From positions 1-64,000 of the forward strand of contig CAIQWB010000054.1 of the NCBI GenBank assembly GCA_903875465.1: 64,000 bases of DNA. Reading direction: 5' to 3'. The notes beneath the pieces were generated by a model that saw only the letters and a program-made list of their open reading frames with translations, ran no database searches and had not been told where the DNA came from. The position numbers were made by a program, and so were the translations under genes. Every line of letters begins with the position of its first letter. Within the stretch, counting starts at the first letter, position 1. This DNA comes from an uncultured Verrucomicrobia subdivision 3 bacterium (GTDB lineage: Bacteria > Verrucomicrobiota > Verrucomicrobiia > Limisphaerales > UBA11358). This document shows positions 12,074 to 19,670 of this stretch, piece after piece.

Positions 12074-14626
12074 GTGGCCATCATCGCCGACTCCATGCCC
12101 GCCAGTTTGAATCTGGTGACCCTGCCCGACCTCTGGCAACAGCAGGCCGTCGCGGCCTTGCGCGCCGGTCAGGACGTCGTGGTCCACGCGCCCACCGGCG
12201 CGGGCAAAACACTCATCTTTGAACTCTGGTCCAATCAGGGCAAAAATCGCGGTCAGGCCATTTACACCGTCCCCACCCGCGCCCTCGCCAATGACAAACT
12301 CGCCGAATGGCGCGCCCGGGGCTGGAATGTGGGTATTGCCACCGGGGACCTCGCCGAAAACCTTTCCGCCCCCATCCTCGTTGCCACGCTCGAAACCCAA
12401 AAGGACCGCCTCGTGCGCGGCGAAGGCCCCGCCCTCCTGGTGGTCGACGAGTATCAAATGATCGGCGACCCCGATCGCGGCCTGAATTACGAACTCGCCC
12501 TGGCGCTCGCCCCCGCCACCACCCAGTTTCTCCTCCTGAGCGGCAGCGTGGCAAACCCCCAGGACGTCGTCAAATGGCTCCGCCGCCTTGGCCGCGATGC
12601 CGTGCTCATCCGCTCCGACCTCCGCCCGGTCCCCTTGGAAGAGGTTTCGACCGGCAGCCTCGGCTATGCCCTGCCTTCAGAAATCAAAGGCTACTGGCCC
12701 CGGCTCGTCGCCAAGGCGCTTGCCGAGGACCTCGGCCCCATCCTCCTCTTTGCCCCCCGCCGTCAGGGGGCCGAGGCCATGGCCGCAGAAATTGCCCGGC
12801 AACTGCCCAACCCCAATCCCCTCACCCTCACTGCCGAACAAAAAGCCCTCACCGGCGAGCACCTCGCCAAAATGCTCGCCAGCCGCGTCACCTACCACCA
12901 TAGCGGCCTGAGTTACGGCGTCCGCGCCGGGGTCATCGAACCCCTCGCCAAGGCGGGTCAACTCCGCGTGGTCGTTGCCACCATGGGCCTCGCCGCCGGC
13001 ATCAATTTCTCCCTGCGTAGCGTCGCCCTCGCCGCCGCCACCTACCGCCGCGACAACGTCGAGCAACCCCTGCGACCCGATGAAATCCTGCAAATGTTCG
13101 GGCGGGCCGGCCGCCGTGGCCTGGATGAAACCGGCTACGTGCTCATTGCGGCCAATGAACTGCGCCTGCTTGATGCCCGCCCCGGCCATTTGTCCCGCAG
13201 CAACGCCGTGGACTGGAGCGCCCTCCTGGGCCTCATGACCCGCGCCGCCCGCGCCGGCCGCGACCCCTTTGCCGAGGCCGTCCGCGTCCAGGAACGCCTC
13301 TTTACCACCAAACCCATTTTCCTTGGCGTCGAAGAATCCCTGAAAAATCCGGAGGTCCCCTGCGGCTTGAAAACCGATCCCGAGCGCGCCCGCCACGTCA
13401 AATTAATGGTACGCCAAATTCAGAACAGCCGCGGTGAATGGCAGCCCCTCCCCACCCCCGAACTCCGCCCCGTGGGAACCATCTATGCCTTGGTGTCCGG
13501 CGATAACGCCAGCGGGCCCGCCCATCCGCCCACTGCGGAACTGGGTGAACCTGCCGCCGAGGCAACGCCCGCGGCCACCGCCCCCACGCTCCGTTCGATT
13601 CTGGAAATCCCCGCCGCCGTCGACCAGGTCGGCCTCGGCCAGTTGTGCGTCCTCGACGAAACGGCCAGCCCCACCCGCTACGGCCGCCGCTTTCCCGTCG
13701 CCGATGTCCTGAATGGCGACGCTGTGGCCCTCGCCAAATGGATCCGCCGCCTGACCAATTGGAAAGCCCGCCAGGCACCCCGCGCCGAATGGGACGGCTC
13801 CATCGCCCCGCTCCTCGCCACCCGCCTGGCCGACCAGAAAACCCCGCTCGTCCGCTACGAAACCGAGGCCCACCAAATCTTCGCCGTGGTCAGCCTCGCA
13901 GAACTCCCCATGCGCACCCTGGTGGATGCCCATGGCCTCGCGCTCCACAAACCGCCCACCCGCGAGGTCATGCCCGCCGATTGCGCCCGCTGCCACCTCG
14001 TGGCCACCTGCCGCACCCTGCCCGCCGCCACCGGCACGGCCCTGCTCTGGCGCCGGCTCGGGCTCGTGGATGCTGCGGGCGTCCCCACCCGGCGCGGCCA
14101 GGTCATGAGCTGCTTTTCCGCTGGTGACGGCCTGGCCATTGCGGCTGCGCTGGAGGACGAGAAATATCCGCTGGAAGAACTCATTTACGACCTCGCCAAC
14201 CTCGAGGCCGGCCACCGTTTTTGCTCCGAGGATAGCCGCTGGTCCGGCCGGCTCGCCTTCGCCTGCCTCCAATGCTTTGGCAACCAGACCATCCCCGGCT
14301 ACCTCGAAAACGGCCTGCCCACGAAATACGGGGCCGGGGCTGAAACTGTCGTCGCCTCGGTCTACCAAAACCCCGCCGCCAAGGCCATGTGGATCACCGA
14401 GCTCCTCGGGGCCGGCGACATCGACCGGATCGTGATCGAATGGCGCAGCCTCCTCCGGCAAATCACCCACGCCCCGGACCTGGCCTGGCCCCGCTGGCAG
14501 GAACTAAAAACCCGTGCCCAGGCCCTGCTGGCCGAGACCACTTCGCCCACCATGACCGACCTGCCACCCCTGGCCTACCAACAAACCAAACGCACCGAAC
14601 ATCGCCTTCACCTCCGCCGCCACTGA
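12074..14626 (+). CDS. Ski2-type DEAD/DEAH-box superfamily 2 helicase with C-terminal cysteine motifs
   Basis: ATP-dependent nucleic-acid helicase of ~850 aa. Motifs in order: Q-like WQQQAVAALRAG, Walker A APTGAGKT (~39-46), Ia PTRALAND, DEYQ (~125) as motif II, SGSVAN as motif III, ATMGLAAGINF as motif V and QMFGRAGRRG as motif VI, the last typical of the Ski2/Mtr4/Hel308 group. The C-terminal half lacks a clear named domain but has CARCHLVATC (~637) and FACLQCFG (~729), possibly a zinc or Fe-S site. The start is GTG at 12074 or ATG at 12095. Whether it acts on RNA or DNA cannot be told. It is monocistronic, with a kilobase of non-coding DNA downstream. Confidence 0.85.
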   Translation: MAIIADSMPASLNLVTLPDLWQQQAVAALRAGQDVVVHAPTGAGKTLIFELWSNQGKNRGQAIYTVPTRALANDKLAEWRARGWNVGIATGDLAENLSAPILVATLETQKDRLVRGEGPALLVVDEYQMIGDPDRGLNYELALALAPATTQFLLLSGSVANPQDVVKWLRRLGRDAVLIRSDLRPVPLEEVSTGSLGYALPSEIKGYWPRLVAKALAEDLGPILLFAPRRQGAEAMAAEIARQLPNPNPLTLTAEQKALTGEHLAKMLASRVTYHHSGLSYGVRAGVIEPLAKAGQLRVVVATMGLAAGINFSLRSVALAAATYRRDNVEQPLRPDEILQMFGRAGRRGLDETGYVLIAANELRLLDARPGHLSRSNAVDWSALLGLMTRAARAGRDPFAEAVRVQERLFTTKPIFLGVEESLKNPEVPCGLKTDPERARHVKLMVRQIQNSRGEWQPLPTPELRPVGTIYALVSGDNASGPAHPPTAELGEPAAEATPAATAPTLRSILEIPAAVDQVGLGQLCVLDETASPTRYGRRFPVADVLNGDAVALAKWIRRLTNWKARQAPRAEWDGSIAPLLATRLADQKTPLVRYETEAHQIFAVVSLAELPMRTLVDAHGLALHKPPTREVMPADCARCHLVATCRTLPAATGTALLWRRLGLVDAAGVPTRRGQVMSCFSAGDGLAIAAALEDEKYPLEELIYDLANLEAGHRFCSEDSRWSGRLAFACLQCFGNQTIPGYLENGLPTKYGAGAETVVASVYQNPAAKAMWITELLGAGDIDRIVIEWRSLLRQITHAPDLAWPRWQELKTRAQALLAETTSPTMTDLPPLAYQQTKRTEHRLHLRRH

Positions 14627-14872
14627 CGGCACCTTTACCCGGGGGTGCGGAGGAAGTCCAAACACTAAAGTCTGATATCCACAGTCAAAGCCCGGACAAA
14701 GGGACGATTGGGCACGAGCAGGTGCGATTCACCGGGACTTGAGCACCCGTAACCCATCACCACACCCCGGCCACTCGTCATTCCCTCCCCCCCCTCTACA
14801 CTGGACAGGAGGAGGCCGCCGGCGGGCGCAGGAGTTCCCGGGGTGTTGGCGGGTCAGGATATTTTGTATTTT

Positions 14873-15103
14873 TAACCCGAACTCCGAAATTAAAATGGCC
14901 GGGATGCGTCAAGATGTTGGAGCAGAAACACTTTGGAAAAATCGCCGGCCTACCCGCAGTGGTCTGGTGAGACTGCCTCTGCGCGCAGCGCACACCCTTA
15001 AATGGGCAACTGCTTGGCAGCGGCTTGGGAAGCCAATTTTCCAAAGTGTTTATGCCCAAGAGATTGATGCAGACCGGCATTTTTAATTTCGGAGTTCGGG
15101 TTT
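14873..15103. repeat. ~230-bp imperfect inverted repeat (possible MITE or structured RNA)
   Basis: The left arm 14873-14946 matches the reverse complement of the right arm 15031-15103 at roughly 80% identity by eye. Perfect blocks are a 22-bp match at each outer end (AACCCGAACTCCG...) and a 15-bp block AAACACTTTGGAAAA at 14926-14940 with its complement at 15037-15051. The centre contains CTGCGCGCAG at 14979-14988. A transcript would fold into one long hairpin. No clear target-site duplication is seen and no transposase is encoded. Confidence 0.75.
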
Positions 15104-15512
15104 AAATGCCGGAATAGCACGGATTAAGCCGGCTGGGATCGGCGAACGGTGAATGTTTCAGGCGCCAAATTCCAGGTTTAAGGAAACCACGGGATCATCC
15201 CAGCGACCATCAGCGAACCGCAAGAATGCAAGCAGCTGATTGCCAATGCTTTCCACCTTGGCTGAGCGCCTTGCAGGGCACTTGCCACGACTATTGGTCG
15301 CTACTTGCTGAGGGACGGATCGGGAAGCATACCCCCCCAAACATGCGACTGACATATAGCGCAGCTTCGTTACGCTTTCCACCAATGCCCATTAACTTTT
15401 CCCAGCACGAATACTCGTTTTGTGCCCATTTTTGGAACGACCATGAGCAGTTATGGCCCAATTTGATGAGCTTGAACCCGTGCCGATTGGCCGGTGGAGC
15501 TCGATCCTTGCC

Positions 15513-15531
15513 GGTCAAATTAAGTCTGACC
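15513..15531. repeat. Imperfect palindrome GGTCA...TGACC
   Basis: A 19-bp imperfect palindrome about 90 bp upstream of the PA14/LamG gene. It resembles the GGGTCAGA-type ends of REP-like elements, by recollection only; it could equally be a regulator site. Confidence 0.3.
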
Positions 15532-15617
15532 CGTAATCGGGCGCGTCCCTTTTCCGATTGAGCGCAGAACCTCAGCCGGATTTTTAGAAACCAAACCGAA
15601 ACAACCGCAGTTATCAC

Positions 15618-18600
15618 ATGAAAAGAAAACAAAAAGTCCATCACCTAGCGCAAAAGGCCATGATGGTCCTAAGCCTAAGCCTTTTGACCGCCACCCAGGC
15701 ACCGGCGGGTTCAATATTTAGAGAGGTATACACCGGATTAGACAATTCCGGCATCGCTGGGACAAGTGTGTCCAGTCTGACGAGTGATCCAAGTTTCCCC
15801 AATTCTCCCGATGCGACCTTATCCTCGGAATTGGTGCAGGATACGTTTGAATTTCCCAGTCTCTTTGTTTCCAATTACGGCGACCAATCGGAAGGTTTCC
15901 TGAGCGCGCCGCAAACCGGAAATTACGTGTTTTGGATTGCCTCCGATGATGACAGCCAACTATTGCTGAGCACGGACGCAAACCCAGCCCACGCAGTGGT
16001 CATCGCTTCCGTGACCGGTTACACCGGCAAGGATCAATGGAATAAATATTCCAGCCAGCAGTCGGTACCAATCTCCTTGGTACAAGGGTCCAGTTATTAC
16101 CTGAAGGTTCTGCATAAACAGGGCGGCGGCGGGGACAATCTCGCGATTGGCTGGCAAAAGCCGGATGGTACATTGGAGAAACCCATGGCCACCCTCTATT
16201 ACGAACCTTACAGCACCACCAACACTTTGCCCATCATCACCCAAAGTCCCCAGGACGCCAGTGTATTGGACGGGCAACTCGTCAGTTTCTCCGTGGACGT
16301 GGCTCCGGCCGCCCAACCCCTGACCTATCAATGGTACCGGGGTGCGTCACCTATTCCCGGCGCCAATTTGCCGGGTTTGACCTTTCGGGCCAGCCTGGCG
16401 GATAACAGCATGGGATACAGTGTCCACGTGGGAAGCGCAACCAGCACAGCGGCAACCCTGAGTGTTTCGCCCACCACCGCACCGGCCTCCGTGGTTTCCG
16501 CCTATACCTTGGGTTATGACAACCTGGTGCAAATCACCTATTCCGAGCAGGTCACACCGCAGAGCGCGACCAACCTGGCCAACTATGGCCTCAGTGGCGG
16601 TATTTCCGTGCAAAAAGCGACCCTGGATGCCAGCGGGACAGTGGTAACTTTGTTTACTTCCCATTTTAATGTTCAAAATTCCTACACCTTGACCATCTCA
16701 GGCGTATCGGATTATGCCACCAGTCCGAACCTGCTAAACACCACGGTGCAGGTTGGCGCGGTGCCGGGCCTGATCACGCGTAAATATTTTCTGAATCTTT
16801 CCGGGACCGCCGTGGCTAATCTGACAAACAGTCCGGCCTATCCGAACAACTATGACATCCTGGAATACACCAATCTTTTTGAAGGCCGGATCAATTGGGC
16901 AACCACCTATGGCTCCCTGTTGCAAGGCTGGGTGGTGCCCGACACCACCGGGGATTATTCGTTTGCGATTTCCAGCGACGACAACAGCGCGCTGTACCTG
17001 AGCACCGATGCCAATCCCGCGAATTTGCGGGCAACGCCGATTGCGTTCGTTTCCAATTACACCGCTTCCCGGACCTACAACACCCTGGCCGGCCAGCAAA
17101 CCACCACGCCCATTCACCTCATTGCCAATCAAAAATACTACATTCAAGCGCTGCAAAAGCAGGACTCCGGCAATGACAACCTCGCGGTGGCCTGGCAATT
17201 AGGCGGCGGCAGTATTGGCGATGGCACCGCCCCCATCGATGGACAGAGTCTGATTCCCTGGTACGATGCCAACGTTCCGCTGGCCTTCACGAATCAACCC
17301 GCCAACCTGACGGTGTTGCAGTCCCGCCCCGTCACTTTGAGCATCGGGGTCAAGGGAGTTCCGATTTACACGGGAATTCAATGGTTCCGTAACGGCAACC
17401 CCATTGCGGGGGCCAATGGGCTCACGTATTCCGTGCCGCATGCCGCGTTGCTGGACAACAACGCCAATTTCTATGCGGTGGTTTCCAATCTGGCCTATAC
17501 CATTCAGAGCACCACGGCGCAACTGACGGTGCTGACCGACACGGTGCCTCCCCAGGTTACGCTGGTGACCACCGCCGTGGGCGCGAACGTGCAAGTGGCG
17601 TACAATGAATTCGTCGACCCGGCCACCGCCACCAACCTGTCAAATTATGCCATCTCTGGCATCACCTTTACCAATGCGATTTTGCAAGGCGACGGCATGA
17701 CCGTGGTGCTGGGTCTCACCGGGTCCCTGCCCGCGAACTTTACCATTTCGATCAGCAACGTGAAAGATTGGGCTGGCAACACCATTTCCCCCAATCCCTC
17801 GGTGGTCACCGGCTACACGACCGGCCTGGCACCCGGCATGATTTCCTACTGGCCCATGAATTTGGTTCAGGGAACCAAAACGCCGGATATCATCAGCGGG
17901 TATGATCTCACGTTGCAGAACATGACCGCCACGAATCTGGTGGCCGGCAAATATGGCAACAGCCTGTATTTCAGCACTTCCGACAAATCATTGCTGATTC
18001 ATACCTTCACGACCAACGACGCCCTCCCCATTTATAAGTATCCAAACTTCACGGTTTCCGCCTGGGTAAACGGTCCAGTTCAAACCGATCACCGCATCTA
18101 TGCCGAGTCCAGCACGTTGGGAAATAACAACCCGATGTTCAGCCTCGGAACCGACACCACGGGTGCCACGGGAAATTTTGACACCTACATTCGCAATAAT
18201 AGCAACACCACCGATGGCAATCACCACCAACATGGCATTGTGCTGGATAACACCTGGCATCATTTTTGTTTTGTCATGCAGTCCAACACCACCCCCAAGG
18301 CCTTGGTTTACATCGACGGGAAGCTGTCCAGCGCCAACCCCGCGCCCATCTGGCCGTTATCAGTCAATAACTTGACGATTGGGGCGATTGTGCGCTCCAG
18401 TGCGGCCGCCTGGTACACCGGCCTGATTGATGATGTCGCGGTTTGGAACCGGAGCCTGGCTGCGGACGAAGTGCAGTTTCTATTCAATAAAGGCACCCCG
18501 GTGCCGCCGCCCAAGCCGTTGCCCTTGACGATCAACTCCTTCAAATCGGATTTGCCCGCGATAGTGCAAGGCGACTCGGTCACCTTGCGGTGGGATGTCA

Positions 18601-19670
18601 CCAAAGACGCCACTTCGGTGCAACTCCTGCCGGTGGGTGATGTCACCGCTTACACCGCTGTCGGGGTGGGTTCCTATACGGTCAATCCGGCCTATTCCAC
18701 CACTTATACTCTGATCGTACAGCGCAGCGGCCAGTCCGTCACCAACACCTTGAATGTGGCGGTCATTGGCGGGGTGGCGTCGGGCTGGACCTTGCTGGAC
18801 AACTTCGACCGTTACAACACGGGACCGCTGCCGGCACCGTGGAGTTATTCGGGCGGAACCACGGTGGTGAATGTCAACGGCAACCGCATGTTGAAAACGG
18901 GCGGCGGAGGCGACTCCCTGGCCTCCCTGCCCCTGGGTGGCCTGTCCGTTTTGGAAGGGCAGCAAGCAACGCTGTTCGCCCGGTTCTGGCTGGCGCAAGC
19001 CATGCCGGCGGGCGCCGTGTTTCAAATGCTGGGCCTCACGGACCGCGGCATTCGTTTCTGGAGCGACATGAACCCGGATTTTGGACCGGATGTGATTTTC
19101 CAAAATCCGAATGGGGATCTGCAAGTGGGCACGCGCAATGGTTACCAGGCACCCATCGAGCTGGCGACGTTCAGCTTGCAGCCGCAAACGGCCTACAATA
19201 TCTGGATCGATGTGACGAACGTCCCCTTTGCCACTGGACCAGACATCTTCTCCATTTACATTGCCCAGGAAGGCAGCGCCACCCGTACGCTCCTCTTCCA
19301 AGATTACGCCTCGGACCGCAACCAGAATGACACCGGCGTCCTGGGCCCCACGGGTTCGAAGCTGATCTATTTACAAGCCGGGGGAAATGATGCCAATGCC
19401 TTGGTTTACTTAGATGACTTCTATCTGAGCAAGACCGGCCTCAACACCACCGTGCCCCTGCCCTTTGGGCCGACCACGCCATTAACGTCAACGCCCATTA
19501 CCTTGACGGCCAATCTGGTGGGCAATCAAATCGTGGTTCACTACGCTTCAGGCACCCTGCAATCCGCCGCCTCACCGGCGGGTCCTTGGACGAATGTCAC
19601 GGGGGCTAACCCGCCCGCCTACACGGGGCCGTTGACCGGAACGCAACTGTTCTTCCGCTGCAAACAGTAA
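15618..19670 (+). CDS. Exported protein with two PA14 domains, Ig-like stretches and a LamG/concanavalin-like domain
   Basis: Secreted 1350-aa protein, probably binding carbohydrate at the cell surface. It has a signal peptide (MKRKQKVHHL, hydrophobic MMVLSLSLLTA, cleavage near QAPAGS). Residues ~30-195 and ~385-545 are PA14-like, each with a GYT/NYT strand, an ASDDDSQLLLSTD or SSDDNSALYLSTD core and DNLA(I/V).WQ. Ig-like and SwmB-like segments follow each. Residues ~740-960 form a LamG/concanavalin A fold (SYWPMN, FTVSAWV, WHHFCFVM, GLIDDVAVWN). The C-terminal 60 aa include GPWTNVTGA and end FFRCKQ. No hydrolase motif is seen. A strong terminator follows the stop, so it is likely a single-gene transcript. 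Confidence 0.85.
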   Translation: MKRKQKVHHLAQKAMMVLSLSLLTATQAPAGSIFREVYTGLDNSGIAGTSVSSLTSDPSFPNSPDATLSSELVQDTFEFPSLFVSNYGDQSEGFLSAPQTGNYVFWIASDDDSQLLLSTDANPAHAVVIASVTGYTGKDQWNKYSSQQSVPISLVQGSSYYLKVLHKQGGGGDNLAIGWQKPDGTLEKPMATLYYEPYSTTNTLPIITQSPQDASVLDGQLVSFSVDVAPAAQPLTYQWYRGASPIPGANLPGLTFRASLADNSMGYSVHVGSATSTAATLSVSPTTAPASVVSAYTLGYDNLVQITYSEQVTPQSATNLANYGLSGGISVQKATLDASGTVVTLFTSHFNVQNSYTLTISGVSDYATSPNLLNTTVQVGAVPGLITRKYFLNLSGTAVANLTNSPAYPNNYDILEYTNLFEGRINWATTYGSLLQGWVVPDTTGDYSFAISSDDNSALYLSTDANPANLRATPIAFVSNYTASRTYNTLAGQQTTTPIHLIANQKYYIQALQKQDSGNDNLAVAWQLGGGSIGDGTAPIDGQSLIPWYDANVPLAFTNQPANLTVLQSRPVTLSIGVKGVPIYTGIQWFRNGNPIAGANGLTYSVPHAALLDNNANFYAVVSNLAYTIQSTTAQLTVLTDTVPPQVTLVTTAVGANVQVAYNEFVDPATATNLSNYAISGITFTNAILQGDGMTVVLGLTGSLPANFTISISNVKDWAGNTISPNPSVVTGYTTGLAPGMISYWPMNLVQGTKTPDIISGYDLTLQNMTATNLVAGKYGNSLYFSTSDKSLLIHTFTTNDALPIYKYPNFTVSAWVNGPVQTDHRIYAESSTLGNNNPMFSLGTDTTGATGNFDTYIRNNSNTTDGNHHQHGIVLDNTWHHFCFVMQSNTTPKALVYIDGKLSSANPAPIWPLSVNNLTIGAIVRSSAAAWYTGLIDDVAVWNRSLAADEVQFLFNKGTPVPPPKPLPLTINSFKSDLPAIVQGDSVTLRWDVTKDATSVQLLPVGDVTAYTAVGVGSYTVNPAYSTTYTLIVQRSGQSVTNTLNVAVIGGVASGWTLLDNFDRYNTGPLPAPWSYSGGTTVVNVNGNRMLKTGGGGDSLASLPLGGLSVLEGQQATLFARFWLAQAMPAGAVFQMLGLTDRGIRFWSDMNPDFGPDVIFQNPNGDLQVGTRNGYQAPIELATFSLQPQTAYNIWIDVTNVPFATGPDIFSIYIAQEGSATRTLLFQDYASDRNQNDTGVLGPTGSKLIYLQAGGNDANALVYLDDFYLSKTGLNTTVPLPFGPTTPLTSTPITLTANLVGNQIVVHYASGTLQSAASPAGPWTNVTGANPPAYTGPLTGTQLFFRCKQ

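Follow-up and report, generated by a model that had tools for sequence, protein, structure and literature searches.

The 225-bp palindrome at positions 14876-15100 of the window (the whole stretch of 64,000 nucleotides that we analysed) is very probably a miniature inverted-repeat element (MITE). It would be a non-autonomous DNA transposon that is moved in trans by a transposase of the IS1380 family, and its autonomous partner would have been lost from the host or be missing from the host assembly. An unexplained palindrome becomes a defined mobile-element family, with boundaries, a target rule and a likely transposase. The element adds a well-resolved new case to a familiar class of mobile DNA, and it behaves like other bacterial MITEs that are linked to insertion sequences.

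Structure and boundaries of the element

The first-pass annotation, made from the letters of the window, described a large palindrome at 14873-15103. The inverted repeat is real and the bounds were slightly off. When copies with unrelated flanks are lined up, the boundary falls at CCC/GGG, which places the element proper at 14876-15100. It is flanked on each side by TTTAA (14871-14875 and 15101-15105), a 5-bp target-site duplication of the kind found around other copies in the host. The perfect 22-bp inverted-repeat block reported in the annotation is present at 14874-14895 and 15081-15102. The outer 2 bp of each block belong to the TTTAA duplication, and hence the terminal inverted repeats are 20 bp long: CCCGAACTCCGAAATTAAAA at 14876-14895 on the forward strand, matched perfectly at 15081-15100 on the reverse strand. 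The first 13-16 bp of this repeat match the ends of IS1380-family elements.

The interior is non-coding and near-palindromic throughout. The repeat search, the fold and paired substitutions delimit two subterminal arms of a long hairpin, the left at 14896-14942 and the right at 15036-15080 (both given on the forward strand). These arms contain the other perfect block that had been noticed, the 15-bp sequence AAACACTTTGGAAAA (14926-14940 and 15037-15051). Between the arms, positions 14943-14972 (forward strand) correspond to the hairpin tip of a shorter, 162-bp form of the element. According to the consensus alignment and the identity by segment, this tip (..CATACCCGCAGNGGTCTGGTGAG..) is alike across species. 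It is followed by about 63 bp (14973-15035) that are part of the 225-bp form and missing from the 162-bp form, and that form small hairpins of their own (consensus alignment and folds).

The arms had been judged by eye to be about 73 nt long and about 80% identical. By the repeat search, 82% of a 51-nt stretch and 78% of a 36-nt stretch are complementary, with an offset of about 1 nt between them. Because of this offset, an ungapped comparison of the arms matches at only 45 of 73 positions. As RNA, the forward strand has a folding energy of -130.1 kcal/mol compared to -70.1 ± 4.4 kcal/mol for shuffled sequences (z = -13.6), and none of 200 shuffles equals it. No other inverted repeat in the window combines an exact 18-bp arm match with a span of at most ~280 bp.

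The element lies in a 991-bp gap between two forward-strand open reading frames (12074-14626 and 15618-19670). It holds no genes, just spurious overlapping open reading frames.

Could the palindrome be a single-copy inverted repeat that arose by chance or has decayed? The inner arms are imperfectly complementary, and nothing else speaks for this explanation. It is refuted by the roughly 110-115 copies in the host, by the target duplications and by 100 shuffles of the window, in none of which the end sequence was matched by chance. We therefore give it practically no weight. The first-pass annotation had reserved it for a single-copy sequence without homologues and without compensatory changes between the arms, a description from which the palindrome departs on every count.

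Copies in the host genome and their target sites

Searching the host genome and its relatives, as the first-pass annotation had proposed, reveals a multi-copy family. With up to 3 mismatches the end sequence matches the host genome 115 times in forward and 114 times in reverse orientation, compared to 0 and 1 matches for a reversed-pattern control. Hence the host carries roughly 110-115 elements. At least 40 full-length copies were scored in the host-genome search, mostly 91-95% identical. The mean pairwise identity among 41 host copies is 91.7%, and the copy in the window is 95.6% identical to the host consensus.

The sequence flanking the element varies from copy to copy. Exact 5-bp duplications surround 34 of 55 distinct host copies, compared to 12.9 expected if left flanks are combined with right flanks at random. 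Allowing one mismatch raises the number to 47 of 55. The target consensus of these duplications is TTNAA, and duplication lengths other than 5 are not prominent. Paralogous empty sites were also sought: the few spanning matches resembled repeats near copies, and none was a clean empty site. The element has no match in plasmid and viral collections.

Two loci have unusual arrangements. At L060 (1360-1540) one copy carries a second right end in tandem (tttaATTTCGGAGTTCGGG). An ATAAT duplication lies outside both right ends, so the duplication length is again 5. At L098, left ends at 1269 and 1526 point the same way. They are 257 bp apart, and gcttttaa precedes each; one may be nested in the other, or the two may form a tandem pair.

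Copies are placed almost exclusively between genes. With a simple codon-usage gene caller, whose calls are approximate, 51 of 54 host copies are intergenic. Among random positions the figure is 34 of 400, and among the TTNAA sites in the window it is 48 of 212. Where both neighbours of an intergenic copy were called, the genes are convergent in 19 cases, tandem in 24 and divergent in 6. An apparent insertion into a 674-aa open reading frame (L023) was discarded: neither half of the frame matches Pfam, and we regard it as a spurious high-GC reading frame.

The host genome is an assembly of 153 contigs with 96% completeness. Copies lie at or close to the termini of many contigs (for example C3, C25, C31, C44, C48, C49, C71, C78, C81, C108, C115 and C130). 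The family explains many of these contig ends, and it is probably a main cause of breaks in the host assembly.

The likely transposase

The link to a transposase comes from relatives of the host. In at least three relatives of the order (L142, L135 and L217), ends of the MITE type lie about 1.5 kb apart and enclose a transposase gene, forming insertion sequences of 1509-1528 bp. The 473-aa protein of L142 scores 233.4 bits against NF033539 (NCBIfam, cut-off 180) and 109 bits against PF13701 (cut-off 34.7); by these profile matches it is an IS1380-family transposase. L135 carries the same gene with a frameshift. The L217 insertion sequence is flanked on both sides by a TTAAA duplication. We thus observe the same ends, together with a 5-bp duplication of the TTNAA type, directly on IS1380 elements of relatives. 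In fragments with about 50-70% protein identity to the L142 transposase, the end motif is nearly always present, at a distance of about 55-60 bp from the coding region on its outer side, and the more distant IS1380-type transposases of the order are without it.

These insertion sequences share with the MITE their CCCGAANNCCGAA.. ends. Like IS1247, an IS1380-family element with inverted repeats of 16/13 and a 5-bp duplication (PMC3281130), they have short terminal repeats and duplicate 5 bp at TTNAA-like targets. They differ in being about 1.5 kb long and in carrying a transposase gene, whereas the MITE is gene-less and has a different, palindromic interior. Similarity between the MITE and IS1380 elements is confined to the terminal ~13-16 bp, and the MITE interior is not derived from the known IS1380 elements by deletion. 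Since only these terminal bases are common to both, we claim that the MITE is mobilised by IS1380 elements, not that it is a deleted copy of one. An IS1380-derived element should have a partner of this family and a target duplication of 4-5 bp; the partner is seen in relatives, and the duplication here is 5 bp.

An IS1380-family enzyme is hence the most likely mobiliser. In the mechanism that we propose, a DDE transposase of this family, supplied in trans, would bind the CCCGAANNCCGAA.. ends and excise or copy the MITE. The MITE would then be inserted at 5-bp TTNAA targets, and the target would be duplicated. Repeated rounds would lead to the roughly 110-115 copies, nearly all of them intergenic.

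In the host assembly, a profile search finds no match to PF13701, and there is neither a match to the L142 protein nor a convincing end of the autonomous type. As far as the assembly shows, the MITE looks orphaned in its host. The autonomous partner may have been lost from the host, or it may be missing from the assembly: a multi-copy partner could be lost in assembly because the genome is in 153 contigs, many of which end in or near copies.

Alternatively, a transposase of another family, with 5-bp duplications and similar ends, could have mobilised the MITE. The absence of a detectable IS1380 transposase from the host assembly fits this idea, as does the confinement of the likeness to the terminal 13-16 bp. 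Against it, the same ends enclose IS1380-family genes in relatives, in one case with a 5-bp TTAAA duplication, and the three DDE_Tnp_1 matches in the host, which we considered as partners, have no matching ends nearby. We regard mobilisation by another family as improbable.

The best-scoring PF13701/IS1380 transposases of the order were also considered as partners for the IS1380 model. Their ends differ, and CCCGAANNCCGAA ends occur in one subgroup only.

Decayed transposase genes occur in relatives. In genome G033 (L215, about 1321-1688, contig G033:C75) an N-terminal relic of the transposase lies beside a decayed end; this genome has many MITE copies and no intact transposase. Two IS1380-type genes in another genome (L230 on G245:C181 and L231 on G245:C165) carry internal deletions, for example residues 1-68 followed by 367-449. 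Genes shortened in this way may be intermediates between insertion sequence and MITE.

Co-evolution of the hairpin arms

The two arms of the hairpin change together. In 32 copies of the 162-bp form, drawn from four genomes, the pairing holds in 96.6% of cells, and both partners have changed in 12 pairs. When the host consensus is set against that of G033, both partners differ in 8 shared pairs, compared to 1.3 expected if the arms were independent. This count is limited to pairs common to both consensus folds and so favours paired changes. Five of the 8 lie outside the terminal repeat. If all pairs present in at least one of the two folds are included, the count is 11 compared to 3.1 expected. 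From these alignments we conclude that the hairpin arms co-evolve.

Co-evolution of the arms does not imply an RNA function, and the paired changes are few independent events. Recognition of both ends by the transposase, or correction of one arm by the other during replication, gives the same pattern; hence an RNA function is not singled out. The first-pass annotation had offered a structured regulatory or non-coding RNA beside the miniature element. In such a scenario an RNA function would maintain the sequence and transposition would be secondary. The very stable fold, the paired substitutions between the families of different species (8 compared to 1.3) and the excess of copies between convergent over divergent genes (19 to 6) would suit it. 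The proposal found no independent support, however: Rfam has no match in 14600-15600 even at E ≤ 1 and none at gathering scores in the window. The neighbours of the copies are unrelated, the paired changes are few events on the tree, and arm co-evolution is also expected from a transposase that reads both ends and from palindrome-templated correction at replication. We consider an RNA function of this kind very improbable. The other proposal, a miniature inverted-repeat element, is upheld by the numerous copies, which lie at unrelated sites, by a 5-bp duplication, by perfect ends and by the same ends on an IS1380 insertion sequence in relatives.

More generally, the whole hairpin with its 70-bp arms, not only its ends, might be under selection across species. 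It would then be exapted or structurally required, rather than a product of neutral palindrome correction. The hairpin could serve the host as a transcript end or as a structure that stabilises mRNA, for instance, or the transposase could need a cruciform. We think such selection unlikely. The family is a natural test case for the persistence of orphan MITEs without a detected partner, and for the question why paired changes keep the long hairpin.

Comparison with known elements

The element has the properties by which MITEs are recognised: it is short and gene-less, with terminal inverted repeats, target duplications and many copies. Ends in common with an autonomous element are found in relatives, and no partner was found in the host.

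Links between bacterial MITEs and insertion sequences have been described in Anabaena sp. 90 (PMC3542288) and in Paracoccus, where MITEPye1 is linked to IS1182, has target duplications and occurs 1-3 times per chromosome (PMC11578231). Like the present MITE, these are short, gene-less and mostly intergenic, with terminal repeats and a long hairpin. Compared to MITEPye1, the present MITE is linked to IS1380 and has a far higher copy number, and its host assembly shows no partner transposase. Our searches of the openly licensed literature brought up neither a MITE that had been tied to IS1380 nor one from this order.

REP and REPIN palindromes, which are mobilised by RAYTs, are likewise high-copy and intergenic. 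To our knowledge, REPs do not have target duplications. The MITE is 162-225 bp long, whereas REPs measure 20-40 bp (PMC3733652), and with its 5-bp duplications and DDE-type ends it does not belong with REPs or REPINs.

Related families in the genus and the order

Forms of 225 bp and 162 bp predominate in the host, and at the hairpin tip the longer one has ~63 bp that the shorter one lacks. Three further genomes of the genus (G033, G063 and G008) likewise carry the 162-bp form, with altered ends (for example CCCGAAAARCGAAATT). Because of this wider occurrence we take the 162-bp form to be ancestral; the 225-bp form is probably derived.

Across the order, 53 of 320 genomes and 29 of 118 genera contain a broader motif, TTNAA-CCCGAANNCCGAANT. 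Where both ends can be read, the motif encloses elements that carry no gene, measure about 80-220 bp and differ in their interiors. Exact 5-bp duplications flank 9 of the 21 listed order-wide elements, two of which are full insertion sequences, compared to 3.3 expected.

A second MITE family with the same ends is 184-187 bp long (for example L065 1505-1690, L085 3131-3317, L109 1506-1692, L119 1506-1689 and L124 1329-1515). It is common to genomes of several taxonomic families in the order, and parts of its interior are 75-94% identical. This distribution suggests that these elements are either old or horizontally spread.

Finally, contig CAIXXC010000065.1, labelled as uncultured Rhodospirillales, carries a 225-type copy (L080 6771-6995; also L081 from 748 onwards). 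Since this copy is near the host consensus, the contig may be a mis-binned verrucomicrobial one.
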